From NCBI GenBank assembly GCA_026182355.1, contig JAPFBL010000234.1:62001-126000 (forward strand): a DNA stretch of 64,000 bases, read 5' to 3'. The position numbers and the translations under genes were made by a program. Of the stretch, positions 494-40,467 are shown piece by piece (the first letter of the stretch is position 1; every line of letters starts with the position of its first letter). The notes beneath the pieces were generated by a model. It was given only the letters and a program-made list of their open reading frames with translations, had not been told where the DNA came from and searched no databases. This DNA is from Hermatobates lingyangjiaoensis. Its lineage: Eukaryota; Arthropoda; Insecta; Hemiptera; Hermatobatidae.

Positions 494-708
494 GGATTTC
501 ACATAAACATGTAAAATAATAATCAATGATCAAACTACAATATGAAATGGGAAAACAAGACAAAGATCTTTCAACCGTAACAAGTGGTCTTCGTCTGAAC
601 CTGGAGGGTTCAGTTGGGTTTTTGACACTGACGAAGACCGCTTGTTACGGTTGAAAGATCTTAGTCTTGTTTTCTCATTTCTTATTGTAGTTTGATCATT
701 GATATATA
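494..708. mobile_element. PLE fold-back remnant with two hammerhead-like motifs
   Basis: The element starts with the outer terminus seen in many copies here (GATTTCACATAAACA), runs into a hammerhead-like motif on the minus strand (about 559-598, core damaged: CAGACGA for CTGACGA), turns around near 600, and ends with the complementary arm, whose plus-strand motif (624-666) keeps CTGACGA, GAA and the AGATCT palindrome. Assignment to Penelope-like elements rests on the published association of minimal hammerheads with PLE terminal repeats. No PLE protein is encoded here. Confidence 0.6.
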
Positions 709-754
709 AGAACACATGAATGATCAAACCAAAATGTGAAATGGGAAAAAAAGA

Positions 755-796
755 ACTAAGATCTTTCAACCGAAACAAGAGGTCTTCGTCAGAGTC
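755..796 (-). ncRNA. Hammerhead-like motif, family 1
   Basis: Minus-strand motif with stem I GACT/AGTT, intact CTGACGA, an extra A, stem II GACC/GGTT, GAA and the AGATCT palindrome. It lies in a solitary arm (about 717-860). The upstream part continues into CAACTGAAACACTAGATGCAG, the same sequence as in the copies at 13.1 and 27.2 kb. Confidence 0.55.
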
Positions 797-1065
797 AAAA
801 ACCCAACTGAAACACTAGATGCAGAAACACCTAGTGAGGGGTTGAGAGTAGTGGGATTAAGATCTTTTAACCAAAGCAAGTAGTATTCATCTTTTGTTGT
901 GTTCAGCGTGTAATACCTCATAGTAGTTCTTGATATTCAACTTACCACCATGTTGAGATTATTTATTGGTCGAAACGTCCAATCTGAGATTATATTACTG
1001 TGGTTTATTTGTTGATATATTAATATCTAAATTCATTTTAAATGCTGATAGACATAACAATCCAG

Positions 1066-1185
1066 TTGGGTTTTTGACTCTGAAAAGACCGCTTGTGACG
1101 GTTGAACGATCTTAGTCTTTTTTTCCCATTCCACATTGTGGTCTGATCATTGATTATTATTTCACGTGTTTATGTTAAATCTTGT
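1066..1185 (+). mobile_element. Solitary PLE arm with decayed hammerhead-like motif
   Basis: Right-arm copy only. The motif at 1076-1117 has lost the conserved G of the CTGANGA box (CTGAAAA) and stem III reads CGATCT. The flank GTGGTCTGATCATTGAT and TTTCACGTGTTTATG matches the family terminus. Probably inactive. Confidence 0.5.
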
Positions 1186-1685
1186 ATATACGAACATATA
1201 TAGATTAGGAGCCGAACCATTTGTTAGTTTGTGAATTCTCACTGGATGCTATCTTATGTAAACCCTATGGCGTACAACACCCAATTATCTAAATATGACT
1301 ATAAACAGCATTCCGTACCAATATTTTAACAATCTATATAAGGTATATTATAATCAATTCATATTTTAATAAACCAAAGTAATATTTTAATATATAATAT
1401 AATTGTGATAATGCAGTCTGAATATTTTGTCACATGTTTGATACTAATGCTTCAATATTCTAATGTTCATCTCCCTGCGTTGATGATGTATTTTTTGCTA
1501 TGGTATATTAATATATATACATTTTGCATGGTCCCCTAAATTACTATTTTTATAAGAGTATAAATAACTATTTTAGTTTTTGCAGATTCCTAGAAAATGA
1601 AACGTGATAAACTACATGACATAGGTTTATAATTTAAAACTTTGACCGAGACAAATTATTTCTTTTGCCGAAAGTGCTCTAACCG
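1186..1685. other. AT-rich stretch, no gene
   Basis: Only short AT-rich sequence with many stops; no repeat family of this window was recognised in it. Confidence 0.4.
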
Positions 1686-1694
1686 ACGGTAACG

Positions 1695-4540: not shown

Positions 4541-4700
4541 CGGGTACGTTTGACAGCACTGGCGGTTGCCGGGTTGGTTACTTGCCGTTGCGTCTACAAC
4601 GTGCTTGGTCTCCCATTCTCTTTTCTCCTGAAGACGGATTACCCGAAAATTTGAGTCTGTAAGTGTGTTTCCCTACTTTGTGTGTTGCTCTTTGTTAATC
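4541..4700 (+). mobile_element. PLE terminal-repeat fragment with hammerhead-like motif, family 2
   Basis: The motif at 4625-4655 reads stem I CTC/GAG, CTGAAGA, an extra C, stem II GG/CC with a five-base loop, GAA, palindromic stem III AATT, then T before the predicted cleavage point. The GC-rich sequence upstream resembles the piece at 34400-34560. Related copies form the fold-back at 4770-5033. Confidence 0.5.
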
Positions 4701-4769
4701 TCGAACTCGTATTGTGTCCAGTTTGGATCGTATTTCGTTTTATCATCGAATATATATATATATATATAT

Positions 4770-5033
4770 ACAGTTCAATGTACATAAAGAAACATAGAGA
4801 AATTAAAAACACAAACTTAAAGTCTCTAATTTTTGGTTGAACCGTCTTCAGGAGATATAAAGAAGGGAAACCAAGCGCACTGGTACAGAGACGGTTGGAG
4901 ACCGTACCATGAGACTGTACCAGTGCGCTTGGTTTCCCTTCTTTATCTCTCCTGAAGACGTTTCAACCGAAAATTAGAGACTGTAAGTTTGTGTTTTTAA
5001 TTTTTCTATGTTTCTTTATGTACATTGAACTGT
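4770..5033. mobile_element. Fold-back element, family 2, with two hammerhead-like motifs
   Basis: Arms of about 115-120 bp run from ACAGTTCAATGTACATAAAG inward and are mirrored at the right end. The minus-strand motif (4823-4855) has CTGAAGA but AAA where GAA is required. The plus-strand motif (4948-4980) has stem I TCTC/GAGA, CTGAAGA, GAA, palindromic AATT and A before the cleavage point. A (TA)n tract borders the left end (4751-4769). Confidence 0.6.
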
Positions 5034-5072
5034 ATTTGTCCATTTCGGATCGTATTTTCATCGAAAAAGTGA

Positions 5073-5103
<31 letters not shown>

Positions 5104-5173
5104 TAAAAAGATTTCACATAAACACGTGAAACAACAATCAATGATCAAACCACAATAAGAAATGGGAAAACAA

Positions 5174-5216
5174 GACTAAGATCTTTCAACCGTAACAAGC
5201 GGTCTTCGTCAGAGTC
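5174..5216 (-). ncRNA. Hammerhead-like motif, family 1, intact core
   Basis: Read on the minus strand: GACT (stem I), CTGACGA, an extra A, GACCG-loop CTTGTTA-CGGTT (stem II with one G.U pair), GAA, AGATCT (self-complementary stem III), T, AGTC (stem I). All positions invariant in hammerheads are present, apart from the extra base. Confidence 0.65.
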
Positions 5217-5245
5217 AAAAACCCAACTGACTCAGTTGGGTTTTT

Positions 5246-5288
5246 GACTCTGACGAAGACCGCTTGTTACGGTTGAAAGATCTTAGTC
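5246..5288 (+). ncRNA. Hammerhead-like motif, family 1, intact core
   Basis: Plus-strand mirror of the motif at 5174-5216, with identical stems, core boxes and AGATCT palindrome. Predicted cleavage would fall after the T that follows AGATCT. Confidence 0.65.
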
Positions 5289-5325
5289 TTGTTTTCCCAT
5301 TTCTTATTGTGGTTTGATCATTGAT

Positions 5326-6224
5326 ATACATATATGTAGGTATATATGTATATATATATACCTACGCCTCCACCTTCTGACCTTTTTTCCGTATCAAACT
5401 TTCATGGTTATTGTAGGTTATTCATTTACTTTTTAATTTCTTGCTATGCCCTATTTTTTTAGAATGATACCATTAACAGGTATTTTATTTTTAAATGTAT
5501 ATAATATGCATATTCTTTATTCAACATTTCATTAAAAATTGTAGGAATTTGACTGTATAGTGTGAAGAAATAAATGAACTATACTGGCTTATCAGATAAA
5601 TAACAACACTGAAATTAAGTTAGATTCATAATATTATTGTTTTCTTTTTTAATAAATGTTAAAGTGAAACAGAAAGAAAGAAGCTTTTAAAGGTTAAAGC
5701 TTATTGTTGGAAGGCAAGGTTGCGAGGAAGGGTGCAACACTGTTTACGACCACAAGTCTCCTTTTAGTGGTGTACAAAACTTTATTAGATTCTTAGTTAA
5801 GTTGTCTCAAACTGTTCTACTAAGACCCAAGACAAACACTGTAGGAAACCCTTTTGCCGCTAAAGCTGCTGCTCTAACATTTATTCCCCTCCTTTATTGG
5901 GCCCTGCTTGTAGCAGTGTTGCCACCCACCTTCATGGCCTTAATCCCCCCAGAACTAGTAAACAGTTTTCACAACAAATCCCTTCTTCCCTTTTTCATTT
6001 TATTAACTATTACTTCTATATAATGTCCAAGTCTTAATTGGTTTTAATACAATCTTATACAGGAATGGAGAAAACATTTTGACCTGCTGCAGTAGATATA
6101 TAATAAATAGGCTTAAATTTTAGGGTTTTTTCTGGGTATAGTATCTTATAATTTACCTGATAATTGAAGATTGTAGAAAAAAGTAAATTAATTTTAATTA
6201 CAAAGCTACATTACATGAAGTACG
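5326..6224. other. Intergenic, no gene recognised
   Basis: AT-rich. A 73-codon open frame at 5802-6023 has a hydrophobic, proline-rich translation without a recognisable family, and I do not call it a gene. Confidence 0.4.
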
Positions 6225-6745: not shown

Positions 6746-7262
6746 ATTTTGGACCATCTTTTATCTTTAACTCTCATGATAGGTCTTGACCAACTCTCTT
6801 TTTCTATAACACTTATACACTCTACATCTTGCATATCTGTTTTGCTAATTACCTTACTGTTTCATATTTTATCTCTCAGCTGAACAAATAGCCAACTACT
6901 TTATATTTTCCTTTCATGAATTCGTATTTTATTAACAATGTTGATTTTTCGTTTAAAACTTTTTCCCGTTAAAATCGTTTTTCCCCGTCTAAAACATTTA
7001 TACCGTTTAAATGGTTTTTCTCGTTTAAATTGTTTATCCTGTTTTATCTCCAGCTCGGTTTTCTAGCTTTTCTTACCCTCTCGTTTTTTTTTGTTTAATA
7101 GTTTTATCTTTAGTGTTTCCTTGTTTCTATTTAGCTTATTACTGGGAGGACTGGACTATTCCACAACTTAACTTTCTTCTCTATATCGACTCTGTTGTAA
7201 ATACATCAAAACCTGTTCAAAGCCCTTCATATCATTCATAATTTTCTTTGGACTTCTTCAAT
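6746..7262. other. T-rich spacer, no gene
   Basis: T-rich sequence including several loose GTTT(A/T)AA-type repeats (about 6950-7050); no gene recognised. Confidence 0.35.
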
Positions 7263-7735
7263 GGTATCTTCACATTCTTCACCATTCTTCCTAAATATTC
7301 ATGTCTACTTCACCATTCTTAACTACTCTTCCTAAATATTCATGTCTACTTCACCATTCTTCCTAAATATTCATGTCTACTTCACCATTCTTCACCACTC
7401 TTCCTAAATATTCATGTCTACTTCACCATTCTTCCTAAATATTCATGTCTATTTCACCATTCTTCATCATTCTTCACCACTCTTCCTAAATATTCATGTC
7501 TACTTCACCATTCTTCCTAAATATTTATGTCTACTTCACCATTCTTCCTAAATATTCATGTCTACTTCACCATTCTTCCTAAATATTCATGTCTACTTCA
7601 CCATTCTTCCTAAATATTCATGTCTACTTCACCATTCTTCCTAAATATTCATGTCTACTTCACATTCTTCCTAAATATTCATGTCTACTTCACCATTCTT
7701 CCTAAATATTCATCTGTACTTCACCCATCATTCTT
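7263..7735. repeat. Minisatellite, about 31-bp unit
   Basis: About 14 units of a period near 31 bases built from CTACTTCACCATTCTTCC and TAAATATTCATGT. Some units carry an extra TCACCATTCTT insertion or a truncation, mostly at the left end. The central units (about 7540-7690) are almost identical, which suggests recent expansion there. Confidence 0.8.
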
Positions 7736-7739
7736 CCTA

Positions 7740-10837: not shown

Positions 10838-12840
10838 AATTGGATCACCAAACTCACAACAGACTCTAGGACTGTAAAGACCATCCGACCACGAAACATA
10901 CTCACCCTAGACAGGACAGAAACTAACATACCGACTTACCTGACAGACCTGCAGAGTTAAAGCAGTACTAATAGATAAGCAGGTGAAAGCCTCTGGCTTG
11001 GAACTGCCTGACTCCAACGTGCAGCATTGCACGGAAACTCTCGTTGGTCGTTGGTCGTTGGTCAACTAGCAGACTTCAATTATATGTTGAAAACTACAAT
11101 ATTCAAGCATTTTACTTAACTCTCGTCATAAAAACGTCAAAAAATGAATCATCTATCTGATCAAAGCCGAGTACAATAGCTCGATGAAACATACCATTAA
11201 TCTCATATTTTTTATGGAATATAAGAGTAATATATACAATGTTTCATGTGGAAGATAACGCCATCCTTGGAGAGAGCCTTAAGCATTCGGCTTTATGCCT
11301 GCTTTGTCAGGTATTATTAAAAACTGAGGTGTCAACTGACAAAAGTCAAAATTTATGATATCCGATGAAGAATCAATTTGGCTTGCCTATTCCTAAAATA
11401 GGTATCAAAAATTAAATAACTTTTCAATCAGAATTGAACACCTAAGTAGTGGATCCCGATCCTGCACGATAAACATCCGTGCCTGTTAAAAATTTCTATT
11501 TCAATTAACTTAAATAAGGCAAAATGTGTGATATCGATGTAGAATCAACCTTAAACATTACTAAAATGGATGGCATATAAAAATTAGCTATTCTTTCCAC
11601 TTCGGGAAAAGAATTACGGGTGAAAACCTATATGTGAGTGTGTTGGAAATAAACAAACAAACAAACCTTTTTGTTAAATTTTGTGATCTACCAATTGTCT
11701 ATTAAGATAAATATAATTAGATTTAATTATCTCTAATAAGAGTCTAATAAAATGAAATGGAACAATAAAATGATATTGAATGATTAAATCCAGACAAGGA
11801 CAATAATAGTTTGATTGTTGCAACTGGATTGGGGGTGTTTGGGTGGGGGTTGTGAGAGGGTCGGTTTTGGCTAAATGATTAAACAGAGCAATAAGGGAGG
11901 ATTGATGGTCCGTGTTTATCTGACCACCCCTGCACCACCGTCAAAGGGGATAATAGACAAAGCCTTTATCTCATTCCAGCCTGGCCGACTGTCTTGTTAA
12001 GAGCAAACTGCCCGGCTTAATGCTATCAAGATAGAGGAAATAGATTTTGTAGCATTTACAGCTGGACAACCATTATTATAGTTTCCCTTACAGAAGGTAT
12101 ATGTTGAGGAGGAAGTTGATAAACTTGTATTAATATTAATTTTAAATCATGGATAAACAACATTATTTTATGTCACCCAGGCAACAAATTACTATATAAA
12201 ATCTAAACAACTCAAACAAGTAAAGTTAAAATATTCGAATACATGCCTCTGTGGCCGACTCAAAGCACCAGTTCGCTCGCCTATTTGGTAATTACTTAAT
12301 ATACATTTTTCAAATTTATTTTTCTAAATTTGGGAAGAAATTTAACAAACACATAATTAATGAACAAACATTTCATATTTACACATAAATATTTGATATA
12401 TTACATAAATGCAATGATGATTAAGAATCGATTTCAGCCAGTTTTTTTTGTAATATGCTGCAAAATTTTACATAATCAGACACTTTTAAGTTAATATAAA
12501 TAAAATCTGCGAATAAAGAGAAAATTTTATTTTGATTAAACATTTTAGTCCTCTGAATACATTTTTGTACATTTTGACAGATTTACAAATTTTGAGACCC
12601 TCTGAATCAATTTTTGAAGATTTTAATTGAACTATAAATTTCAAAATCCTCTGAAACCATTTTTGAATAGTTTGACAAATTTAATTATTTGAATATCCTA
12701 CGAATGAATTTTGGGAAATTTTGACAAATTTACACATTTAAAGAGCCTCTAAATCGATTTTTGAAGATTTTTATGGATTTAATCATTTCAAGTTAATGAA
12801 TGTAAGTTATGTTTTTCTATTTATTTGTATTTTTAACTAT
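10838..12840. other. Intergenic, possibly LINE 3' material at the start
   Basis: No gene recognised. The sequence to about 11665, ending in repeated AAAC units (GGAAATAAACAAACAAACAAAC spread over 11644-11665), could be LINE 3' region, since short AAAC tails are common there; this is inference. A GC-balanced patch at 11820-12010 has no domain. The remainder is AT-rich. Confidence 0.35.
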
Positions 12841-13096: not shown

Positions 13097-13560
13097 AAAG
13101 ATCAAACTACAAAATGAAAATGGGAAAACAAGACTAAGATCTTTCAACCGTAACAAGCGATATTTGTCAGAGTCAAAAACCCAACTGAAACACTAGATGC
13201 AGAAAACATCTAGTGATGAGTTGAGATGAGTGGGAGGGAAGAGTGGTATTTTAAAAGGGTGAAAGCGCAGGAAAGGACTAATGTCCAGAAAGGGATGTTT
13301 GGGGAAACAAAAGAGTACAGTAAGAAAGAGTAAAAAACATTAACATGTTAAGCTCAATATTGCTCAGACATGTTAAATGGTATAGGTATGTTGACGATAT
13401 ACTTTGAATCTGTCCTAATTCTATAAATAAAGATGATTTTCTAATAAAAATCATTGACTCTGACGAAGACCGCTTGTTACGGTTGAAAGATCTTAGTCTT
13501 GTTTTCCTATTTTCATTTTGTAGTTTGATCATTGATTGTTATTTCACGTGTTTATATATA
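13097..13560. mobile_element. PLE fold-back with long spacer and two hammerhead-like motifs
   Basis: Left arm motif on the minus strand (13132-13174) has a damaged core (CTGACAA) and a disrupted stem II. Right arm motif (13456-13498, plus) is complete, with CTGACGA, GACCG/CGGTT, GAA, AGATCT and AGTC. The spacer of about 280 bases includes CACTAGATGCAGAAAACATC and GAGTGGGAGGGAAGAGTGG, which recur at 37160-37230. Thus less of the parent element is lost than in the tight palindromes at 5.2 and 40.3 kb. Confidence 0.6.
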
Positions 13561-14702: not shown

Positions 14703-15519
14703 CTCTTTAGCAGTGGCGACTCCTGACCTTTTTCTTTAGGCATGCAATTTTCAAAGAATAAAAGAAAACAGAGAAATACCCTTCTAATTCTCATGTTCAG
14801 TCTTTTCATGTTGCACAAAAGGATAATGATGTATTAAAAACATTTTATGGGGATTTGAATCAGGTTTTATTTGGAAATACTTTTAACATTAACTTTTATT
14901 AACCAATACAATAAAAATAGGCAAAAAATGTTTTTATTAAAGAAAGAGATACACAATACATCATTTGAATAAAAACTTCTTGCAAAATTCTTCGATAACA
15001 AAACCATAAAACTTCTCTCTATCTGCCATGAGATCTTTAAGTAAATGTCTTTCAATTGAAATTAGGGATAAATTAGACAATCGCTCTTCACTTTGGGAGC
15101 TTCGTAAATAACTTTTAATTCTTTTGAGGGCAGAAAACGATTTCTCAACACTTGCTGTTGTTATGGGAATAGTCATAACCAAATTCATGAGTTTATAAAT
15201 TTCCGGAAGACCTGTGTCAAATCACTTTCCAGTATGTATTTGAGGAGCTCAGCAAGCCTGAGTTGCAGTGTATGCAAACTTCGTTCTTGTTTCTCTTGGC
15301 AATTAAGACCATTTTCATTAACCAGAAATGATAAGAGTAAACCCCTGCATTGGGAAGCCTAGCACAATCATAGAAAATGGTTCCTTAGCGTGTCATGGAA
15401 TAAAAAAAAGGGGTTCCTTTAAATATTTCGAGTCTCGAACATTTTGGTTTCTTTAAAGATGAATTCTATGCATGCAATGCATGTGTTGCATTCCCTGAGA
15501 AATCGCCACTGCTCTTTAG
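14703..15519. mobile_element. Non-autonomous hAT element, copy 1, with 8-bp target duplication
   Basis: The element spans 14711-15511 (801 bp). It begins CAGTGGCGA and ends TCGCCACTG, so the termini are inverted repeats, and it is flanked by a perfect 8-bp duplication CTCTTTAG (14703-14710 and 15512-15519). An 8-bp duplication and CAG..CTG ends are hAT hallmarks. It keeps only the C-terminal dimerisation region of a hAT transposase on the minus strand and shares nearly all its sequence with the copy at 36233-37036. Confidence 0.9.
14961..15240 (-). pseudogene. hAT transposase C-terminal fragment, broken
   Basis: The 75-codon frame has MNLVMTIPITTASVEKSFSA then LKRIKSYLRS and LSNLSLISIE. This is the hATC dimerisation region of hAT transposases, where the (T/S)ASVER.FS motif is typical. 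Relative to the copy at 36484-36801 one base is missing near 15216, which cuts off the upstream residues. The DDE catalytic core and zinc finger are absent, so it cannot be an active transposase. Confidence 0.85.
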
Positions 15520-15721
15520 ATATGTACGATAATAACAAACTACAATGTATACTCATACTCTCTATAATATAAAGTCTACATATATTAACAATAATAATGA
15601 AGTGGAGAGTAATAATAAAAAATTTGAAGTGATAATAATAACGCTGATGGTAATAGTAATAAGAATAATCAATGTGACAGGCTTCTTTGTTTAAGATATA
15701 GTTATACCTGTTGTAATTCTT
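15520..15721. other. AT-rich spacer
   Basis: Rich in AATAAT-type repeats, between the hAT element and the Copia insertion. Confidence 0.4.
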
Positions 15722-15979: not shown

Positions 15980-16100
15980 TTACATATCTACAAGTCCCAA
16001 TCGGGAACACAAATCAGAATGTCGGGGCCTAGGCAGAGCTTTAGTTAAAATATCGGCAAGTTGGGCGGTTGATGGTACCTTTGTACCTCCACTTCTCCAT
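15980..16100 (-). pseudogene. Copia RNase H C-terminal remnant
   Basis: In a frame different from the integrase frame, the minus strand encodes STAQLADILTKALPRPRH followed by LCSRLGLVDM and a stop. This resembles the conserved C-terminus of Copia RNase H (ADI.TK.L......LR..LGL). It is all that remains of the RT/RNase H half. The deletion junction lies at about 16075-16100, where the upstream frame reads NNTW, a residue string that normally precedes the RT domain. Confidence 0.85.
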
Positions 16101-17729
16101 CCAGGTGTTGTTGTCTTGCAAGGAGCGAATCTCAGAGTCCATTGCCTGTCTCCAAAGCTTTGACTGACGACTCTCAATAGCTTCCTCGTATGAAGTAGGT
16201 TCTTCAACATCTGAAATGTTTTCATTAATCATGACAAAATCCGAATATCTTGCCGGCTTTTTCAGTATGTTGCGATCCCGAAGAGCAGTCCTATTTTCGA
16301 CAGATTCGTCTTCTGAAACGTGCTTCTCAAAAGCACGTTTTGGAGATGTTTCAGAAGGCTCTTTAGGTGTCTTGTCACATTCCTCTTTAGGTATATTATC
16401 ACGTTGAACTCGAAGGGGAGTCTCTTCAAATGTAACGTCACGAGATCGTATAAGCTTGTTAGTGCTTTTACACCAAATCCGATACCCATCCGCTTCATAT
16501 CCAATCAAAACACCTTTGACAGCCTTAGGATCCAACTTGTTACGTTTTTCTTTAGGAACATGAGCGTAACATTTTGATCCGATTATTCTTAGGTGTTTCA
16601 GGCTAAGTATTCGTCCTTCCCAAAGCTCAAATGGGGAGATACGCGGTTGACTGGAGGTACCGGTCAGGTTCAATACGTACACAGCAGAATTTATCAGCTC
16701 TGCCCAGAGTGCTTGAGGCAATTCTTCATGAGCGTGCATCATCGCTCTTGCAGTCTCCACTACTGTCCGGTTGTCCCTCTCTACGCAGCCATGTTGTTCA
16801 GGGGTGTAGGGCATAGTGAGCCTCTGTTTTACTCCATGTTTTTGTAAAATCTTCTTTACAGCGAGGTTATTGAATTCCCCTCCGTTATCGGAAAGAAGCT
16901 CTCTCACAGTGTACCCAGCAGTTTTTATTTCAGCTAAAACAGTTTTCAAAGTATTGATCACTTCAGATTTATGTTTTATGAAATAGACAAAGCGAAAACG
17001 TGTATAGTCGTCCTTGAAAAGAACGAAGTATTTGTATCCTGAATAAGAAGGTACAAATGGTTCACAGACATCCGCATGTAACAGGTCACCCTGTTTACAG
17101 GATCTAACCCTTGTTCCAAAGGATTTTCTATGTGCCTTACCGTAGATACAGCCTTCACACAGTTCACTGTCAAGTGGAAGGTCTATACCAAGCTCTCTCT
17201 TAACCGTTTCCCTTACATGGCGTTTATTCTGATGTCCCATACGTTCATGATGAAGTTGAAGCAGGTTTTCATGACAAGTAGAATAGAGCGCGGGTGGTTG
17301 AGTTGTGACAATGTGAAGCTTATAAAGGCCTCCAAATCTATTTCTGGAACCAACCAGTTTGGTCTCACCATCAATGGTCAAGCAGCATTTCTCTCCCGTT
17401 GACTCGAACTTGCTACGCAGAATTTTATCTTGAATAGACAAAACAGAGAATAAGTTTTTCTTTACATCAGGTACATACCACACATCACTCAATGTGATAT
17501 TTTCTTGTCGCCCATCCACTAGAGCAACGATGTCCACTGAGCCCTTCCCAAAGGCTCTCATCAACTCTCCATTCGCTATTGTCACCATGTGATCCGTCGA
17601 GAATGGTTTGAAATCACGTATCATATCTTTCCAGCGGCAGACGTGGTTCGTGGCTCCGTTATCAACAAACCAGTCTTGTTGATTGCACTCAGCTGACAGT
17701 TTGCAGGAGGTGGTGGCCAACAACATCAT
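16041..17729 (-). CDS. pol: Copia pol, protease and integrase only (562 aa)
   Basis: This Copia polyprotein part would act in particle maturation and DNA integration. A protease-like motif WFVDNGATNHVC lies near residue 20, with N in place of the usual S of D(S/T)G. A gag-pre-integrase zinc-binding pattern follows (HHERMGH, then CEGC), then the integrase core with HADVCEPF, LLSDNGGEFN and CVERDNRTVVE supplying the D, D and E residues. The protein then reads NNTW and runs into a short out-of-frame tail caused by the internal deletion, so no reverse transcriptase follows. It starts one base before the gag stop in the -1 frame: the start ATG (17729-17727) and gag stop TGA (17728-17726) overlap as ATGA. 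The integrase looks intact; the element as a whole is not autonomous. Confidence 0.88.
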   Translation of the reverse strand: MMLLATTSCKLSAECNQQDWFVDNGATNHVCRWKDMIRDFKPFSTDHMVTIANGELMRAFGKGSVDIVALVDGRQENITLSDVWYVPDVKKNLFSVLSIQDKILRSKFESTGEKCCLTIDGETKLVGSRNRFGGLYKLHIVTTQPPALYSTCHENLLQLHHERMGHQNKRHVRETVKRELGIDLPLDSELCEGCIYGKAHRKSFGTRVRSCKQGDLLHADVCEPFVPSYSGYKYFVLFKDDYTRFRFVYFIKHKSEVINTLKTVLAEIKTAGYTVRELLSDNGGEFNNLAVKKILQKHGVKQRLTMPYTPEQHGCVERDNRTVVETARAMMHAHEELPQALWAELINSAVYVLNLTGTSSQPRISPFELWEGRILSLKHLRIIGSKCYAHVPKEKRNKLDPKAVKGVLIGYEADGYRIWCKSTNKLIRSRDVTFEETPLRVQRDNIPKEECDKTPKEPSETSPKRAFEKHVSEDESVENRTALRDRNILKKPARYSDFVMINENISDVEEPTSYEEAIESRQSKLWRQAMDSEIRSLQDNNTWMEKWRYKGTINRPTCRYFN

Positions 17730-20089: not shown

Positions 20090-20300
20090 CCGCTTGGTGG
20101 TAAGTGGTGGGGTACTGGCTGCGGTTACCGAGTTCAGTCACCGCCCTGCCTTCCTGCAGGACTCTTCGCTCTTCACACCTCCTGATGACGACGATGGTCG
20201 AAATATCGATGTGAGTTATGTCTGTGTCTTTCTGTGTGTTTCCTTCGTTTTGAATTTATTTTATTTAAAAAGTCCGCTGGACCGTTTCTTTTAAATGTTA
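20090..20300 (+). mobile_element. PLE terminal-repeat fragment, family 3, with hammerhead-like motif
   Basis: The motif at about 20176-20213 reads CTGATGA, an extra C, stem II GAC/GTC with loop GATG, GAA, palindromic ATAT, then C before the cleavage point. Stem I pairs CACCTC with GATGTG apart from one mismatch. A GC-rich block lies upstream, and downstream GTGTCTTTCTGTGT is shared with 29990-30015. Confidence 0.6.
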
Positions 20301-22477: not shown

Positions 22478-22522
22478 GGCCTATGAAAAAGGTTTTAAAT
22501 AAAACCGAAACGTTGGCAACGA
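22478..22522 (+). ncRNA. Degenerate hammerhead-like motif, family 5
   Basis: CCTATGA (one base short of CTGATGA), A-rich linker, stem II GGTTTT/AAAACC (six pairs), GAA, palindromic ACGT, then T. The flank AACGAGAGTTTGATT is of the type found after PLE hammerheads. The missing core base suggests it is dead. Confidence 0.4.
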
Positions 22523-22644: not shown

Positions 22645-22850
22645 ATTTCACATAAACAAGTAAAATAACAACCAATGACCAAACCACAATATGAAATGGG
22701 AAAAAAGGACTAAGATCTTTCAACCACAACAAGCGGTCTTCGTCAGAGTCAGTTGGGTTTTTGACTCTGATGAAGACCGCTAGTTATGGTTGAAAGATAT
22801 TAGTCATTGTTTTCCATTTCTTATTGTAGTTTAAACATTTTTCTATATAT
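22645..22850. mobile_element. PLE fold-back, family 1, tight turn
   Basis: The arms carry a minus-strand hammerhead-like motif at 22708-22750 (CTGACGA, stem II GACC/GGTT, GAA, AGATCT) and a plus-strand one at 22763-22805 (CTGATGA, AGATAT in place of the palindrome). The turn lies within CAGAGTCAGTTGGGTTTTTG (22744-22763): the left arm lost the AAAACCCAACT piece, so the junction is asymmetric. Confidence 0.65.
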
Positions 22851-24024: not shown

Positions 24025-24245
24025 AAGATTTTACAATAAACATGTGAAATAAAAATCAACATCCAAACCAGAGTAAGAAAACAGAAAGAAGACCAAAATC
24101 TTTCAATCAAAACAAGTGGTTTTCCATCAGAGTCAAATCGTAACAGAGAGTATTAGTTGAGATTTGACTCTGATGAAGACCACTTGTTATGGTTGAAAGA
24201 TCTTGATCTTTTTTCTGATTTTCACTGTGGTTTAGACAATGATAA
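24025..24245. mobile_element. PLE fold-back, family 1, diverged
   Basis: The minus-strand motif at 24091-24134 is degraded (CTGATGG, AGATTT). The plus-strand motif at 24166-24208 keeps CTGATGA, stem II GACCA/TGGTT, GAA and AGATCT, with GATC replacing AGTC in stem I. The loop CGTAACAGAGAGTATTAGTTG is unique among the copies. Confidence 0.55.
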
Positions 24246-27162: not shown

Positions 27163-27460
27163 TATATATATATATATATATGAATGATTAAACCACAATA
27201 AGAATGGGAAAACAAGACTAAGATCTTTCAACCGTAACATGCGGTCTTCGTCAGAGTCCAAAACCCAACTGAACACTAGATGCAGAAAACATCTGGTGAG
27301 GAGTTGAGTTCTCCTCACCAGATGTTTTCTGCATCTAGTGTTCAGTTGGGTTTTGGACTCTGACGAAGACCGCATGTTACGGTTGAAAGATCTTAGTCTT
27401 GTTTTCCCATTCTTATTGTGGTTTAATCATTGATTGTTGTTTCACGTGTTTATGTGAAAT
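27163..27460. mobile_element. PLE fold-back with long arms, family 1
   Basis: Arms run from GATTAAACCACAATAAGAAT (27186) to a turn near 27307 and back to 27425. They are nearly perfect and include an extra 45 bases per arm (CACTAGATGCAGAAAACATC and GGTGAGGAG) compared with the tight copies. Complete hammerhead-like motifs lie at 27216-27258 (minus) and 27356-27398 (plus). In both, CTTGTTA of loop II is ATGTTA-like (CATGTTA), so the two arms share a private change and derive from one another. (TA)n tracts lie on both sides. Confidence 0.72.
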
Positions 27461-27499: not shown

Positions 27500-27720
27500 T
27501 TACACAAAGCACGACACAGAAAAGAGAATACAAGGAAAACTTACAGAATTCAATATTTCGAACTGTTGTTCGTCATCAGGAGAGTAGACTAGTAGAGAGG
27601 ACGAAGTGAGAGAGATCTCCCCACGTCGAAGAACGGAGCGCGAATGAAGAAATAAAGAGTCAACCGAAGAGAGCAGCACTAGCGTAAAAAAGGAGCTAGG
27701 CACTAAACGTCGGAGAACGG
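27500..27720 (-). mobile_element. PLE terminal-repeat fragment, family 3, minus strand
   Basis: Minus-strand motif at 27546-27586: CTGATGA, an extra C, stem II GAAC/GTTC with loop AACA, GAA, palindromic ATAT, T before the cleavage point. Stem I keeps two pairs (TC/GA) and then weakens. Upstream (27590-27720) is a purine-rich block with GAGAGCAGCACTAG. Confidence 0.55.
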
Positions 27721-28174: not shown

Positions 28175-28885
28175 CTACTCAGCCGATTGGTCATCACCAT
28201 TCACAGGGGCATCGAATTCGCTTACATCGATTACTAATTTGTAGGAGATATCAAAGTTTCTACAGATAGGTATAACATTCATATCACTTATTTGTGCATT
28301 TATAACAGGATTCAAATCTTTAATATAGAGTGATTCAATTATTTTTAATCTATTACTATCACTGTTCATCTGCAAAATAGTTGTCCCTTCATCTAACATC
28401 TTCCGTGTTAAAGCCATAGTATGGGCTTCTCTTGCATGGTTCTTGGGGGCCCAATTCACTAAATGCATGCTCAATCGTCTTGAAAGCTTAGTAGTTGTCA
28501 TCCCAATATAATAATTTGAGGGCAGGGTTGCGCAGTCCCCTGTATTGCATGTATATTTATATATTAAGTGACACTTATGCAAGTCTGGTACAGCTTTTCC
28601 ATGACGGTTTCTTAATATGAGGTCTTGAGTTTTTCTATTTTTGTAATATATTCTTAATTTTATTTTGCCATTAGGATCTGTGGTTTTGACATTGTTCTTA
28701 ATGATCTTCTTAAGTGCTGTTTCATCTTGTCGGTATTGATTATTCATATATCCTCGGTAATACAGTAGGATTTCTTGCCCTGTGTTGTCCATTTCATTTT
28801 CTTTTTCTTCGGTATACCACCTATCCATTTGCCTCTTGATAACACTCGATATTTCTTTATTGCTATAGCCGTTGTTCAGGAGCAC
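28175..28885 (-). pseudogene. Penelope-like element GIY-YIG endonuclease fragment (236 aa)
   Basis: This would be the C-terminal endonuclease that nicks target DNA for a Penelope-like retrotransposon. The frame includes ILLYYRGYMNNQYRQDE and VPDLHKCHLIYKYTCNTGDC, then NYYIGMTTTKLSRRLSMHL, the GIY-YIG core in its PLE form with the family's cysteine pair in the insertion before YIG (CNTGDC). A metal-binding glutamate candidate lies in IIESLYIKDLNPVINAQ. The frame is open for 236 codons and stops before a (TA)n tract, but the reverse transcriptase is absent upstream, so this is a truncated copy. It is the clearest protein evidence that PLEs populated this region, in keeping with the ribozyme-like repeats around it. 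Confidence 0.85.
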
Positions 28886-28941
28886 CTGCGTGGATTTATC
28901 TCATTCGTCAAGTATTAATTTCCAATTACTGCAGTGCGTAA

Positions 28942-29290: not shown

Positions 29291-29339
29291 TATAATTTGA
29301 GTCACAGTCAAATTTGACTATATATATATCTATATATAT

Positions 29340-29660
29340 CAGATATATGTATATATATATATATAAACTAGAATTTAAAAAAGAACACATAGAAAGGAAA
29401 CCACTGAACTCACTAATATATTTCGATGTCCTCGTCTTCAGGAAAAGAAGTGAATCGCTCCAAAGGCTGATAACGACTGACTTGGCGTTCGAACTGAAGC
29501 ACTCAAACAGTGTAGCCAACTTTCGGAGGAAAGGTAGACAGGGAAGATAAAGAAATAAAAGCCAAATAAAAATTAAAAAAGAAAACATTTAACTAAAATA
29601 AAATTAAAAACTGATAACAACTTTAAAAAAAAAACTTTAAGAAAAAAAAATCAACGATTG
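29340..29660 (-). mobile_element. PLE terminal-repeat fragment, family 3 variant
   Basis: Minus-strand motif at about 29408-29452: CTGAAGA, an extra C, weak stem II (GA/TC), GAA, palindromic ATATAT, T. Stem I pairs only in part (CACT/AGTG after an internal loop). It is probably linked to the endonuclease fragment just left of it. Confidence 0.45.
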
Positions 29661-29671
29661 AGGTTAAGCCC

Positions 29672-31849: not shown

Positions 31850-32585
31850 AACAATCAGTTTTTATAGCGTTATTGCTCTTTGCCGTAATTGATATTACCT
31901 AATTTTTGTTAAAAATTGTTAAGTTTTTGTTCAATTTTTGGCAAATTTTCATTTTTTTAATGAACTTTTTAGCGTCATAAAACGTTTTCTGGAAACAGAA
32001 GATTTACTTTTACTGTTTGATGAACGTAATTTTGAAAAAAATTATCTCTACTCATCCTCCTCAGAATGTTCGATTTTTAGGTATAATTTCATTTTGATTC
32101 GTTAAACGGTATGGCTTGAATCGTTCTCACAGGCTTTCAGATTGAATTATAAGTCAAAATGTTTACATTTTATTAAAAAAAAATTTCCGTTGTTCTAAAA
32201 ATCTGAGGTTATTTTCATTTATTGCTTTTGTAGCCTCAAAAATTATACTAAAATTTCAAAACACAAGAATTAGTAGTTTAAGAGAAAAAAAAGTAGTCTA
32301 AAAACAGGTTTTTTGCAAAAAAAAAAACTGACATTTCAATCAGGTATAATTGCTCCCAAGCAATAGGCCCAATTTTGTGTAAAATATCACCCTGATCCAT
32401 CAAAGATTCTGGACCGTAGCGTGGTAACAAGCAATGCTAACACACTCACACACCCACACACACACACACAGACGTCATCGAAAAAACTTCATCAAACGAC
32501 TTTTGATACCACAAAACATGTAACTTCGTTAAAATTTCGAGATCGAATTTTTTCACGATCACTATATTTAACCCGTAGCAAATAA
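31850..32585 (-). repeat. Dispersed repeat family R1, copy 3 (longest)
   Basis: Minus strand, longest copy. It spans both the part seen at 21352-21625 and the part seen at 6225-6745, so it links these two fragments into one family of at least 730 bp. A (CA)n-rich patch lies at 32447-32470. No coding region recognised. Confidence 0.65.
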
Positions 32586-32589
32586 AAAT

Positions 32590-34570: not shown

Positions 34571-34642
34571 AATAATAATCAAAACAACACTTGATATAAT
34601 AGATGGATTAATTTACCACAATGAAAACAATTTTTGAAACAA

Positions 34643-34680
34643 TGCTCTAAGGCCTTTCGTTAACACATCGTCAGAGAGCA
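34643..34680 (-). ncRNA. Hammerhead-like motif, family 4
   Basis: Minus strand: stem I TGCTCT/AGAGCA (six perfect pairs), CTGACGA, an extra T, short stem II GT/AC with loop GTTA, GAA, palindromic stem III AGGCCT, then T. This has the longest and cleanest stem I in the window. Confidence 0.65.
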
Positions 34681-34906
34681 AGTGAACTAAAAAAGCAATA
34701 AATACTTGTTAACTTGGCTGATTGAAATTTCCAGAATTGATGGCAACCCTGAATGTGTTTAATGATGAAGTCTTCATCATCAAAATTGATTAGCGGGATA
34801 ATTAAACAGATGAAGACTTCATCATTAAACACATTCAGGGTTGCCATCAATTCTGGAAATTTCAATCAGCCAAGTTAACAAGTATTTATTGTTTTTTTAG
34901 TTCACT

Positions 34907-34944
34907 TGCTCTCTGACGATGTGTTAACGAAAGGCCTTAGAGCA
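34907..34944 (+). ncRNA. Hammerhead-like motif, family 4
   Basis: Plus-strand mirror of 34643-34680, identical in all stems and core boxes. Confidence 0.65.
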
Positions 34945-34995
34945 TTGTTTCAAAAATTGTTTTCATTGTGGTAAATTAATCCATATATATATATA

Positions 34996-36070: not shown

Positions 36071-36181
36071 TACCAATGTATGGATATTGATTTTATTTTA
36101 CTTGATACTCTCATTTGTCTTCTAGGAAAAGTAGCCTTTATCTTCATGTCAATGAGTGTAGAGGTTGCACAGTCCCTCTTG

Positions 36182-36185
<4 letters not shown>

Positions 36186-36231
<46 letters not shown>
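36186..36231. repeat. (TA)n microsatellite
   Basis: Pure TA tract that received the hAT insertion; it resumes at 37037. Confidence 0.95.
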
Positions 36232-36232
<1 letters not shown>

Positions 36233-36234
<2 letters not shown>

Positions 36235-37033
36235 GTGGCGACTCCTGACCTTTTTCTTTAGGCAAGCAATCTTCAAAGAATAAAAGAAATACAGAGAAAT
36301 ACCCTTTTAATTCTCATGTTCAGTCTTTTCATGTTGCACAAAAGGATAATGATGTATTAAAAACATTTTATGGGGATTTGAATCAGGTTTTATTTGGTAA
36401 TACTTTTAACATTAACTTTTATTAACCAATACAATAAAAATAGGCAAAAAATGTTTTTATTAAAGAAAGAGATACACAATACATCATTTGAATAAAAACT
36501 TCTTGCAAAATTCTTCGATAACAAAACCATAAAACTTCTCTCTATCTGCCATGAGATCTTTAATTAAATCTCTTTCAATTGAAATTAGGGATAAATTAGA
36601 CAATCGCTCTTCACTTTGGGAGCTTCGTAAATAACATTTAATTTTTTTGAGGGCAGAAAACGATCTCTCAACACTTGCTGTTGTTATGGGAATAGTCATA
36701 ACCAAATTCATGAGTTTATAAATTTCCGGAAGACCTGTGTGCAAATCACTTTCCAGTATGTATTTGAGGAGCTCAGCAAGCCTGAGTTGCAGTGTATGCA
36801 AACTTCGTTCTTGTTTCTCTTGGCAATTAAGACCATTTTCATTAACAAGAAATGATAAGAGTAAACCCCTGCATTGGGAAGCTTAGCGCAATCATAGAAA
36901 ATGGTTCCTTAGCGTGTAGTGGAATAAAAAAAAAGGGGTTCCTTTAAATATTTCTAGTCTTGAACATTTTGGTTTCTTTAAAGATGAATTCTATGCATGC
37001 AATGCATGTGTTGCATTCCCTGAGAAATCGCCA

Positions 37034-37036
<3 letters not shown>
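36233..37036. mobile_element. Non-autonomous hAT element, copy 2, inserted in (TA)n
   Basis: 804 bp with CAGTGGCGA and TCGCCACTG ends. It is inserted into a TA tract (36186-36231 left, 37037-37071 right), so its 8-bp target duplication merges with the repeat. It is collinear with 14711-15511 with scattered substitutions and keeps a longer transposase remnant. Confidence 0.9.
36484..36801 (-). pseudogene. hAT transposase C-terminal fragment (105 aa)
   Basis: This is the C-terminal dimerisation (hATC) part of a hAT transposase. The frame MHTLQLRLAELLKYILESDL continues with IPITTASVERSFSALKKIK, LSNLSLISIE and EEFCKKFLFK. The TTASVERSFS motif is the hallmark of this domain. The catalytic DDE core is missing. 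The frame is open over its length, unlike the copy at 15 kb. A two-copy element keeping this dimerisation region could in principle act as a dominant interfering peptide, but simple internal deletion explains it equally well. Confidence 0.85.
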
Positions 37037-37054
<18 letters not shown>

Positions 37055-37073
<19 letters not shown>

Positions 37074-37325
37074 CAAACCACAATATGAAATGGGAAAAAA
37101 AAGACTAAGATCATTCAACCGTAACAAGCTTTCTTCGTCAGAGTCAAAAACCAAACTGAAACATTTAGGTGTGGGATTGAAAAGAGTGGGAGGGAAGAGT
37201 GGTATTTTAAAAGGATGTTTCTGCATCTAGTGTTTCAGTTGGGTTTTGACTCTGACGAAGACCGTTTATTACGGTTGAAAGACCTTAGTTTTTTTCTCAT
37301 TTCATATTGTGGTTTCGTCATTTAT
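37055..37325. mobile_element. PLE fold-back, family 1
   Basis: Minus-strand motif 37103-37145 (CTGACGA kept, stem II 5' changed to GAAAG, AATGATCT for AAGATCT) and plus-strand motif 37248-37290 (CTGACGA, GACCG/CGGTT, GAA, AGACCT). The spacer includes GAGTGGGAGGGAAGAGTGG, as in the 13-kb copy. (TA)n precedes. Confidence 0.6.
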
Positions 37326-38707
37326 ACTTACATATTTACCAGGTTAACTGTTAGCACAATGAAAATAATATGAGAAAAATATCAAATTTTTCCCATGGTT
37401 ACATTGATACATGTAATTTATTTTAATTGTTTCTCAATTAAAAGCGGTAATGTAGACTCAATATTTGGTTACTAGTATAGTGTATACCATCTAGGAAGAA
37501 ATAACTTACTAAAAACGAATATAGTTTCTTTATTAATTAGTTTCATTAATTAATGAATTAATTAACCATTGATAGAATGTACTGAACAAAATGGCTCTTG
37601 ATTTTGTGGGTCCTCTGTGAATTTCACAATGAGACCATTGGCTCTGTTATCAGCTGTGCTTGGACCATATGTCATAATGTCAGTTTAAAAAAACTAACTA
37701 TAAAATAATATCTGAAGATTCCAGTAAATTAATAATTGAAATGTATATCAAAAATACAGTGTTTTTATAACTATTTAAAGTGTTTATCATTTTCTAGGGT
37801 TATCTGTAGATATAACAAAATAATGTAATGTTGATGTATTTAAAACATAGTAGTAAAAAGTTTTTTAGAATTTGTGTTAACTTGGTTGTTACTGTCCAGG
37901 TTGTTACTCTCGACCTCAGGCCCACAGAGAGCAGCACAAAGCAGCACCGTACTCAAAGACGGCCCACTATTAACTGAAATAATTGTAATATATCTAAGTT
38001 TTCAAATATGCAGAATTAGACAAGTCATTACATACTTAAGAAAATTAAATCTCTATATATAAAGTTCGTGAATTTGTTTGTTTGTTTCATCACCCATTTT
38101 CCGTGGAGATAGAGATCTGAAATTAAATATATATTATTTATTGCCTGAATAATGTTAAATAAAAGAAAATTATCACTGTATTCCCAAAATTAAAACCAGA
38201 GTAGCAAGGGTCCTGCGTGCTCGTTCATGACAGTAGGGCAAATGTATTATAAATAAATTTAACAAATATATAATAAACTACTACATTAGAGGTTAAAAAT
38301 AAATAATTTTAGAAACAAACTTAAACGCAACTGTCAAATAAAATACGAATGTTCTAAGGTAATATTATAAAGACACATTCCTTTCATTAATGTTATTTTA
38401 TGTTAGGTAAATAAATTGAATATTTCAATTTACAAGTTTTGTTTGTTTTAAATAAATTTGATTGTGTATATAACTATATATAAACTATGTATAACCATAA
38501 CTATAAATATGTATTGATGTTTTATTTATTTATGTCATAAAACAATTTTTTTTTACATTTAAATGATTTTTATTTTGTTAAATATACTTACTATATATAT
38601 ATATCTTGATTCATGTTAAGAATAATATATTAAAAACTTTGGGGTCATATAAGGATCTGTATCCTTAATCTCACATTTATAAATGAAGGACTGTTCCCCA
38701 AATATAC

Positions 38708-38708
<1 letters not shown>
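37326..38708. other. Intergenic, no gene recognised
   Basis: AT-rich. CTCTATATATAAAGTTCGTG (38051-38070) followed by TTTGTTTGTTTG resembles the start of R2 half B. No gene seen. Confidence 0.35.
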
Positions 38709-38761
<53 letters not shown>

Positions 38762-38870
38762 TGAGTTGACTGCCGTCCCTCTGTCAATTCATTTCTTCTC
38801 CTGAGGACGACCGCCATTACGGTCGAAATATTGAAAAGTGAGTCTTTTGTTATTTTAAAAAAATAAAATA
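38709..38870 (+). mobile_element. (TA)n plus PLE terminal-repeat fragment with hammerhead-like motif, family 3
   Basis: A TA tract (38709-38758) leads into a fragment whose motif (38793-38840) is one of the best here: CTGAGGA, extra C, stem II GACCG/CGGTC (five Watson-Crick pairs, loop CCATTA), GAA, palindromic ATAT, T. Stem I TCTTCTC pairs with GAAAAG apart from one mismatch. Confidence 0.65.
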
Positions 38871-40250
38871 CTGTAATGTAGGTTATTGCATAATTCCAAT
38901 CGTGTAGTATGCAATAACTTATTTTATAAATAAGTTTATTTTATAGTTGACTGTTCATACTTTTCTTATCGCTTAATTTATAGCACTACAGGGTGTAGTT
39001 CAACAGGAAGAGTATTTCAACAGTCTTCATATGTAGTAAACTTCATTTTAATATCTTTAAGAAGTTTTTACAAATCATTTTATTTAAAAAAATAATAATA
39101 ATAATAAAGTAAAGTAAATGAGTGAAGAAATAAATATTATAAATAAATTATTATTTATAAAAAATTGAGGAAGAACTCAATGAGTTGCTTTATGAACAAA
39201 AAATATTTAGTATACAATCAGAACAATTTTAAAGAAGAAATAATAGAAAGATAAAATAAGGTGATTTAAACAAAGAATGAGGTAAAGGGTTTGCGATGAA
39301 TATTCAAAACAAAAATAAACATAGAAAACCCATTAAATAGAGAAATTGTTCTTATTGTACGCAAAGCAACTTTTGAATCATGCTGGATATCTCAAATCAA
39401 CCATTGACTTGAGCCTGTCATTCAATTTCACACAATTTCATCTTTCTTGCAGTTCAACTTATGTTGCTACAATTGTCAAATACTGTTTACATTCTAAAAC
39501 CACCCTTCTTAGGAAAACATACAAACAGAGATAGTGCATTCTGAAGCGACCATTAGTTCTATAAACTATCTTCATAGTTTACTGTTACCTTTTAAAACAC
39601 GTGACTTAGTCATTTTCCTTCAGTACCATTACATAACTATGGAATTCAACATTAGTGGTTCAAAATAAGACTTAGTTTCACTCCAAGCTAACAAAACATT
39701 GTTATTTTTCAACCATCTTTGTTCTACTAACCTTAACAATTTACTAAAAATTCGTTTTTATACATCACTTTTTTCAATTATAACCATCCATCATAGGTTT
39801 TAAATTTTAAATATTTATTAAACGCCAATGCGGTTTATATATTACTAAGTTCATTATGTCAACAACCAACCATTCTAAGGATATAAATTTAATGATTTAA
39901 TAAAACTAATATAAAACAATTGTGGTGTGACGATCCCACCCCCTTTCTTATTTTTATTGATGAAGTTTTACTTCATAATCAGAATTCATGCATACCCATA
40001 TACCAGAATACTTAACCTGTGCAACTACTGCAAGATGTTAGTTACAAGTATAATGAGCAAATTAGAAGTGAGTTAGACCAAAATGAATTCGTAATTTAAG
40101 GTATTCACCAAAATAGAGCAACAAAATATACAGATAATATTAAAGAAATAAACAAAACTGACATTTGATTACGACATAATTCTAGTTTAGAAGGGTTTTT
40201 ACACTTCTCTTGGAGACTTAAAAGTTTATGTAATTTATATAGTTCAATAC
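38871..40250. other. Intergenic, no gene recognised
   Basis: AT-rich; an AATAATAAT tract near 39090. No recognisable gene. Confidence 0.4.
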
Positions 40251-40467
40251 ATGATCAAACCACAATAAGAAATGGGAAAACAAGACTAAGATCTTTCAAC
40301 CTTAACAAGCGGTCTTCGTCAGAGTCAAAAACCCAACTGAAAACCCAACAGTTGGGTTTTTGACTCTGACGAAGACCGCTTGTTAAGGTTGAAAGATCTT
40401 AGTCTTGTTTTCCCATTTCTTATTGTGGTTTGATCATTGATTGTTATTTCACGTGTTTATGTGAAAG
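40251..40467. mobile_element. Near-perfect PLE fold-back, family 1, tight turn
   Basis: Arms meet at about 40345 (CCCAACTGAAAACCCAACAG), so the turn differs by a few bases from the 5.2-kb copy. Motifs at 40284-40326 (minus) and 40362-40404 (plus) are complete. Both share TTAAGG in place of TTACGG on the stem II 3' side, so the two arms were copied from each other. It ends with TTTCACGTGTTTATGTGAAA and no TA tract. Confidence 0.7.

Follow-up and report, generated by a model that had tools for sequence, protein, structure and literature searches.

Minimal hammerhead ribozymes were reportedly described in Penelope-like elements (PLEs) by Cervera and de la Pena in 2014, and dimer cleavage is said to be the published reading for the minimal class (Lunse, Weinberg and Breaker 2017). 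In the sections available of PMC7761336, PLE hammerheads are of type I, have a reduced or missing helix III, lie in pseudo-long terminal repeats (pseudo-LTRs, or pLTRs) and occur in thousands of copies in animal genomes; those without a normal helix III are thought to act as dimers (excerpts of PMC7761336 and PMC6155905), and palindromic stem III sequences had already been noted in 2011 (excerpt of PMC3088659). Here we describe motifs of this kind in the hemipteran insect Hermatobates lingyangjiaoensis, both in a 64,000-nucleotide (nt) window (positions 62001-126000 of contig JAPFBL010000234.1) and across the genome (910 Mb in 1,629 contigs). A first-pass annotation of the window had proposed about 30 hammerhead-like motifs with a self-complementary stem III. 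We consider it probable that these are PLE hammerheads with an extra nucleotide after A9 and a mostly palindromic stem III, whose predicted cleavage would likely take place only when two copies pair on the PLE protein, and that the inserts carrying them were self-primed from uncleaved RNA.

The hammerhead motifs themselves are confirmed as an observation. Over both strands of the window, 22 real-looking motifs combine CTGANGA and GAA at plausible spacing (remaining rows were judged chance by reading), and a strict descriptor requiring stems I and II of at least 2 bp, an A...T stem III and H17 finds 17, compared to a mean of 0.28 and a maximum of 1 in 40 dinucleotide-preserving shuffles. These numbers, together with the reversed controls given below, exclude a chance origin. 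A fuzzy search by family marks 29 places; with 38801(+) and, near 22507(+), a damaged copy of ACGT type, the total comes to about 31. The proposed figure of about 30 is thus correct only because damaged copies are included, and does not hold for two-box or strict motifs. As had been claimed, the motifs form several families with unrelated flanks and a common hammerhead core, and two named examples (5246-5288 and 34907-34944) were returned to the nucleotide by the strict descriptor, while a third, given as 38793-38840, is present with an extent of 38799-38834. Of the stem III palindromes put forward, the window holds intact examples of AGATCT, AATT, ATAT and AGGCCT; ACGT was found in the damaged copy only, and the supposed ATATAT at 29441(-) can equally be read as ATAT. 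Compensation in stem II was borne out by covarying pairs in window copies, e.g., GACCG/CGGTT, GACCG/CGGTC and GACCA/TGGTT. Rfam 15, searched against the window at E up to 10, returned no hammerhead match; its 36 weak matches, none at gathering score, are mostly to microRNA families at palindromic or low-complexity places, with small nucleolar RNA and bacterial small RNA models besides. A sub-threshold RAGATH-25 match lies at 31986-32036(-) (25.8 bits against a gathering score of 49; E 0.044).

Two features absent from the first-pass annotation are an extra core nucleotide and a head-to-head palindromic arrangement of the motifs. Regarding the former, the window plus fetched loci were scanned with a gap of 0, 1 or 2 nucleotides permitted between A9 and stem II, and the gap was exactly one in 181 of 181 motifs, distributed over 24 clusters, with families 1 and 2 making up more than half. 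These motifs possess both boxes, a three-way junction with stems I and II, the A15.1-U16.1 pair and H17; the consensus core, in which G10.1 directly follows A9, was seen in 0/181. In an earlier scan, 140 motifs had one inserted nucleotide, a single motif had two and no motif lacked an insert, while reversed sequence gave no motif. Of 21 families, 11 have T as the inserted base, 8 have C and 2 have A; G was never seen. The 181-motif scan demanded pairs 10.1, 10.2, 1.1, 1.2 and 15.1; among pairs that it did not demand, 10.3 is kept in 19/21 families and 1.3 in 16/21. In chrysanthemum chlorotic mottle viroid, a hammerhead insert is likewise located between A9 and G10.1. Small insertions beside CUGANGA are mentioned in the available text of PMC10085705, and known hammerhead alignments are said, in excerpted sources, to contain at most one or two inserted nucleotides there. 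No mention of an extra nucleotide in PLE hammerheads was met in broad literature searches not aimed at the insert, nor in look-ups for it within three papers; a universal core insert is perhaps new to the literature.

The same architecture is abundant genome-wide. A T-insert pattern has 23,845 matches (39 in reversed controls), a C-insert pattern 66,700 (22), and a pattern with a 6-nt stem III and any non-G insert 40,403 (128). Their sum, approximately 131,000 against 189, counts some places twice (at least six listed 6-nt matches recur in the T- or C-insert lists) and does not take in families 1 and 4; an exact family 4 string has 2,369 matches against 0 in the control. A no-insert pattern gave 1,075 matches against 170, and among those listed a number are insert-family variants by eye. 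Although the T-insert pattern required no more of stem II than its closing G-C pair, this stem extends to 5-6 bp in 75 of 100 matches listed. With the inner bases of stem III likewise unconstrained, stem III is a perfect palindrome in 83/100 and 97/100 of matches listed, among which all four ANNT forms are used (ACGT, AGCT, ATAT, AATT); 6-nt forms include AGATCT, AGGCCT, ACATGT and ACGCGT. Perfect palindromes also occur in 18 of the 21 families of fetched loci, under a scan score that favoured them, the clearest exception being family 4 with ATTAT.

Several lines of evidence connect these motifs to a PLE. Of two PLE endonuclease pieces proposed for the window, that at 28178-28900(-) is real PLE sequence, while the one at 29.1 kb was not confirmed. 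The former has 150 scored genomic matches among 18,290 candidates, at 52-100% identity, some of which sit in open frames of up to 837 codons. In two of these matched loci, L096 and L097, an 837-codon frame is flanked by two identical motifs, 2,732 nt apart and in direct orientation. This frame matches RVT_1 at 1.7e-9; when the final 158 residues, taken from a truncated copy, were scanned separately, they matched GIY-YIG at 0.0008 with 20.1 bits, below the curated cut-off of 22.6, and GIY-YIG is not listed when the whole frame is scanned. Reverse transcriptase (RT) and GIY-YIG endonuclease (EN) are therefore found in one frame, the latter at a sub-cut-off score. The frame has 508 homologues at E up to 0.001, with a precomputed GIY-YIG in 1 of the 120 listed, and its closest named relative is from the crab Eriocheir sinensis (51%). 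A family 2 motif lies downstream of RT/EN-like sequence at 27-28% identity (L041, L044), and three arms (L082, L083, L094) extend beyond the motif to take in the opening 40-60 codons of the PLE frame. The motif-frame-motif layout, together with the family 2 and arm evidence, thus identifies the motifs as PLE terminal repeats, with direct or inverted pseudo-LTRs, an optional tail and an AT-rich target. For family 1, the commonest in the window, no attached frame was shown, and we infer its PLE origin from architecture. The proposal that PLEs contain motifs of hammerhead type whose stem III is self-complementary is hence supported by the genome patterns and the motif-flanked frames.

Truncated PLE copies precede each of the intact ones, in tandem in L096 (371-844) and head to head in L097 (48-476). 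In L063 (1705-3142), the first ~100 codons of the PLE frame are repeated at 334-nt spacing in five matches, i.e., a tandem of PLE ends. By eye, the tails of several families (L101-L115, F1, F4) hold a short hairpin, such as GTCC...GGAC or, in family 1, TTTCAC...GTGAAA; this hairpin may be where RT starts, by analogy with the AC-rich stem-loop described in PAc, a PLE of Anolis.

Neighbouring motifs are predominantly arranged head to head. Among the matches listed, same-family neighbours less than 1 kb apart are divergent in 27 of 30 cases (1 convergent, 2 tandem), and over all families in both lists 30 are divergent, 5 convergent and 7 tandem. In fetched loci of six families, 56 divergent, 13 convergent and 9 tandem neighbours were counted, all 13 convergent ones belonging to family 1, whose copies are crowded. 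This arrangement bears on whether the motifs could be animal retrozymes, which are small, non-autonomous elements that have circular RNAs and type I hammerheads. Retrozymes are described as short repeats of 150-450 bp, arranged in tandem and bearing canonical hammerheads (excerpt of PMC7229834). Short non-coding one-hammerhead units in a PLE-rich genome would agree with such an origin; against it, listed same-family neighbours are divergent at the above rate and none of the 181 scanned motifs has a canonical core, making retrozymes a highly improbable source.

A tail is present on exactly one arm in 66 of 69 decided pairs, comprising 51/54 in a first set and 15/15 C-insert pairs picked by orientation and motif alone. 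The first set was initially scored as 46 with one tail, 7 with none, 1 with both and 2 cut; five family 4 pairs had been scored as tailless because the query already contained the tail, and were corrected by reading, while a few counted pairs, e.g., 723-1142, may not be single insertions. By eye, the tail end appears precise (AAATCTT in family 1), with the other end varying by ~10 nt and adjoining the AT-rich target. The two arms share 21 rare variants, compared to ~1.7 expected after permuting arms (in family 1, 9 versus 1.07, in 6/34 pairs). Hairpin loops of at most 10 nt occur in 27/71 pairs, against a fraction of 0.17 (~12) expected from random pairing of half-lengths within families. The one-armed tail and shared rare variants favour self-primed hairpin copying over two independent complementary DNAs (cDNAs). 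In excerpts of PMC3846280, self-priming was proposed earlier for rotifer PLEs, and argued for an antisense template; the one-tail-rule and arm-sharing counts are, to our knowledge, new.

Alternatively, the head-to-head pairs could have arisen from two RNAs: a dimeric PLE protein, perhaps bound to RNAs joined through stem III, would cut both target strands and prime a cDNA on each, with the 5'-truncated cDNAs then being joined. The PLE protein of Anolis cuts and extends both strands and is a predicted dimer (PMC11167929), which makes such a route plausible; moreover, divergent endonuclease pairs recur (14 among 150 places listed, with no convergent pair within 3 kb seen), half of the pairs have centres of >20 nt, and the window pair at 22681-22834 has arms of different subfamilies, making it the best candidate for a two-template insertion. 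Against two RNAs stand the sharing of rare variants far above permutation, the excess of short loops, and the single tailed arm, which would not be expected from two equal start reactions; if both RNAs came from one locus with one 5' end, the first two arguments would lose weight. We consider this route unlikely overall, though to be taken seriously. A DNA transposon (miniature inverted-repeat transposable element) reading of the palindromes was dropped because arm length varies by copy, the tail is one-armed and longer copies carry PLE sequence. Two measures were also set aside: gapped alignment through palindrome centres (20/36 pairs reach 0.94, compared to 23/36 at 0.70 or more on an ungapped measure), because gaps can skip the loop, and apparent two-RNA hybrids from column 14 differences in family 1 arms, because the loci were chosen by a query with that base, such that selection and later mutation explain the differences.

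The reading we prefer has two parts, cleavage of paired motifs and self-priming from uncleaved RNA. For cleavage, as in the published class, the upstream and downstream motifs of a pLTR-ORF-pLTR transcript (ORF, open reading frame) would pair, either in cis or with those of a second RNA, and their folding and cutting would be aided by the PLE protein. Based on palindrome anatomy, uncleaved RNA would be reverse-transcribed at an AT-rich target beginning at the tail, after which the cDNA end would fold back and prime its own second strand. Microhomology would join the returning strand to the opposite flank of the target, at AT-rich sequence and before the tail is reached, leaving one insertion with two mirrored arms. 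The identical direct motifs of L096 and L097 would permit pairing within one transcript; concentration dependence need not follow in that case, and the proposed stem III formation between two RNA copies would need refinement to include pairing in cis. A transcript of a palindromic solo copy holds one sense and one antisense motif, and that of 5137-5326 folds as one long hairpin (-168.0 kcal/mol, compared to -16.3 when the right arm is folded by itself); the ribozyme should be buried in such a fold and is predicted to be a poor one.

With respect to what was copied, 44 of 151 family 1 alignment starts fall in a 10-nt bin located 15-24 nt upstream of the core, with only 3 and 1 in two cut-site bins, most of these loci having been chosen for long matches. 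Cleaved RNA was therefore rejected as the insertion template for family 1, the copied RNA being mostly not cut there within that sample. The Anolis PLE offers a biochemical counterpart: its hammerhead cleaves in vitro with protein assistance, and its protein extends both strands from two RT start sites bounding the tail (PMC11167929). As that hammerhead needs protein and is dispensable for insertion in vitro, and as family 1 shows no 5'-end peak at the cut site here, cleavage, if any, would be placed on tandem transcripts, i.e., it probably does not set the ends of inserts and more likely trims long tandem transcripts.

Seen beside the predicted cut is a GTRAGT 5' splice-site consensus, at most 25 nt past it in 7/24 clusters (6/8 with C insert) compared to 0-1/24 in the other 25-nt bins tested; examples are 4625-4680, 20180-20215, 27535-27581 and 38799-38845 in the window and 997-1035 in L096, where by eye the cut directly precedes GTAAGT. 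Splicing and cleavage could compete; by eye, no in-frame join giving a spliced frame that starts in the hammerhead was found in L096.

Various observations weigh against our preferred reading. As to insertion, family 1 and 2 loci were picked by similarity and are non-random samples, and L069-L073, L083-L095 and L101-L115 were chosen because they are pairs. Among family 1 pairs, 28/34 share no rare variant, though many carry none. Centres exceed 20 nt in 35/71 pairs, the excess at 20 nt or less is small (36/71 versus 0.38 expected), and the loop was taken as the minimum over centre shifts up to 40 with a null not minimised likewise. The arms of 22681-22834 carry variants of different subfamilies. 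Flanking direct repeats of at least 11 nt occur in 14/54 pairs against a null of 0.11, several being (TA)n or element sequence; target-site duplications are clear by eye in few loci and are not general. The Anolis PLE uses its two start sites equally on either strand (PMC11167929), which does not alone yield one tail per pair. As to cleavage, ATTAT, an odd stem III, is found in the most frequent of the exact strings tested, and the extra core nucleotide may, by analogy, weaken cutting, as in a viroid hammerhead with lowered activity (excerpt of PMC11014351). Anolis hammerhead mutants insert normally in vitro, and no RNA-sequencing ends were found at the cut site of that element (PMC11167929).

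Conservation is similarly double-edged. The first-pass annotation had expected core and stems to be better kept than flanks; within family 1 (113 copies) this is not so, variation in CTGANGA being 0.042 versus 0.032 and 0.056 in the flanks, as expected for dead copies. Judged from sequence, core conservation is visible only between families with unrelated flanks. The motifs might no longer cleave and persist as hitchhiking parts of terminal repeats, or as a folded element that binds protein or dimerises RNA. The insert in every scanned motif, the flank-like decay of the family 1 core, the missing 5'-end peak at the cut site and the normal insertion of Anolis mutants (PMC11167929) are all in keeping with loss of cleavage. 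Conversely, the core, stem II covariation and the A15.1-U16.1 pair are maintained across unrelated families, although the descriptor itself enforces part of this, and the Anolis hammerhead does cleave in vitro with protein; on this evidence we find loss of cleavage rather doubtful. More speculative still, and in our estimation improbable, is that hammerheads with the A9/G10.1 insert form a class of their own, inactive as monomers and activated only when palindrome-paired motifs meet on a dimeric PLE protein, with more than 100,000 copies recording a checkpoint for two terminal repeats and with insertion via hairpin self-priming of uncleaved RNA. The extra nucleotide would in any event be a simple handle on why such a ribozyme may need protein.

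Table 1. Hammerhead motifs, mirrored insertions and PLE sequence in the window.
Feature	Position	Strand	Basis or remark
Family 1 hammerhead, GACT-CTGACGA-a-GACCG/CGGTT-GAA-AGATCT-T↓AGTC	5246..5288	+	strict descriptor
Family 1 hammerhead, mirror arm	5174..5216	-	strict descriptor
Palindromic insertion, two 94-nt arms, 1 nt between, 100% complementary, tail on left arm only	5137..5325		
Tail of left arm (AAGATTTCACATAAACACGTG...), (TA)n further outward	5108..5136		ends approximate
Palindromic insertion, 124-nt arms, 99% complementary, 7-nt loop, tail on right arm only	27180..27434		CATG and TTTTGGACT variants in both arms
Family 1 hammerhead, left arm	27215..27259	-	strict descriptor
Family 1 hammerhead, right arm	27355..27399	+	strict descriptor
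Palindromic insertion, 95-nt arms, 98% complementary, 9-nt loop, tail on right arm only	40245..40443		TTAAGG variant common to both arms
Family 1 hammerhead	40284..40326	-	strict descriptor
Family 1 hammerhead	40362..40404	+	strict descriptor
Family 2 palindromic insertion, 180-nt arms, 99% complementary, 30 nt between, tail on left arm only	34599..34988		longer genomic copies have PLE RT/EN-like sequence upstream
Family 2 hammerhead, stem III AGGCCT	34643..34680	-	strict descriptor
Family 2 hammerhead, stem III AGGCCT	34907..34944	+	strict descriptor
Family 1 palindrome, arms 14.5% different, differing subfamily variants, tail on left arm only	22681..22834		
Family 1 hammerhead	22708..22750	-	strict descriptor
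Family 1 hammerhead, decayed stem III AGATAT	22762..22806	+	strict descriptor
AATT-family palindromic insertion, 121-nt arms, 96% complementary, 26 nt between	4768..5035		damage to left motif (CAA in place of GAA)
Hammerhead, C insert, stem III AATT, GTAAGT few nt past cut site	4625..4655	+	strict descriptor
Hammerhead-like, C insert, stem III AATT	4947..4988	+	fails strict descriptor; end approximate
Hammerhead, C insert, stem III ATAT, GTGAGT directly past cut site	20180..20209	+	strict descriptor
Hammerhead, C insert, ATAT, same strand as and downstream of GIY-YIG piece	27550..27581	-	strict descriptor
PLE frame fragment, endonuclease end, 241 codons	28178..28900	-	
Hammerhead-like, C insert, ATAT, weak stem I	29400..29447	-	fails strict descriptor; ends approximate
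Hammerhead, C insert, stem III ATAT, stem II GACCG/CGGTC	38799..38834	+	strict descriptor
Family 1 hammerhead	13456..13498	+	strict descriptor
Family 1 hammerhead, AGACCT	37248..37290	+	strict descriptor
Family 1 hammerhead	754..796	-	strict descriptor
Old family 1 pair, motifs 24134(-) and 24166(+), right copy with stem II GACCA/TGGTT	24065..24234		

Other features of the window include Copia-type integrase-part and gag frames of 562 and 282 codons, with Pfam support, at 16041-18574(-), and a dispersed repeat at 14760-15526 and 36283-37051 whose pieces are 94-98% identical and lie 21.5 kb apart. Two short tandem arrays are present at 12549-12791 and 7201-7732 (49-nt unit; spacings of 10, 21 and 31 nt).

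The role of PLE hammerheads is called a mystery in the available text of PMC7761336, and the origin of head-to-head PLEs is unsettled between self-priming and two-ended insertion. Approximately 131,000 matches and many young mirrored pairs make both questions countable in one genome. The one-tail rule, the shared rare variants and the missing 5' peak at the cut site limit the models that can be entertained: in the sample, uncleaved RNA looks like the template of the inserts, and an insertion's two ends seem to be made in different ways.

Ultimately, the motifs are a new and very large set of the published minimal PLE hammerhead kind, with the same type I layout, reduced helix III, pseudo-LTR location and possible dimer cleavage; they may differ in carrying an extra nucleotide after A9, which is present in every scanned motif. 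The hammerhead of the Anolis Poseidon element PAc (PMC11167929) also lies in a PLE terminal repeat and is described by stems I and II only. Its cut site is 26 nt past the start codon, and in 62/100 of the T-insert motifs listed here the distance from A9 (in A9-T-G10.1) to H17 is likewise 26 nt, a common register that is suggestive by analogy; the long frame of the intact PLE here, in contrast, opens after the motif. Newt and axolotl satellite hammerheads likewise have a very short helix III with a palindromic loop and are more active as dimers (excerpt of PMC7229834), but these sit in tandem retrozymes and keep loop 1 - loop 2 contacts. The viroid hammerhead also has one extra core nucleotide (excerpt of PMC11014351), whereas here the insert is found throughout all 24 clusters and is accompanied by a palindromic stem III. 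Closest in insertion anatomy are the inverted pLTRs of rotifer Penelope elements, which show the same head-to-head repeats, palindromic junction and optional one-sided tail (excerpt of PMC3846280); those families are low-copy, whereas the 71 pairs examined here render the one-tail rule and the sharing of variants between arms countable.

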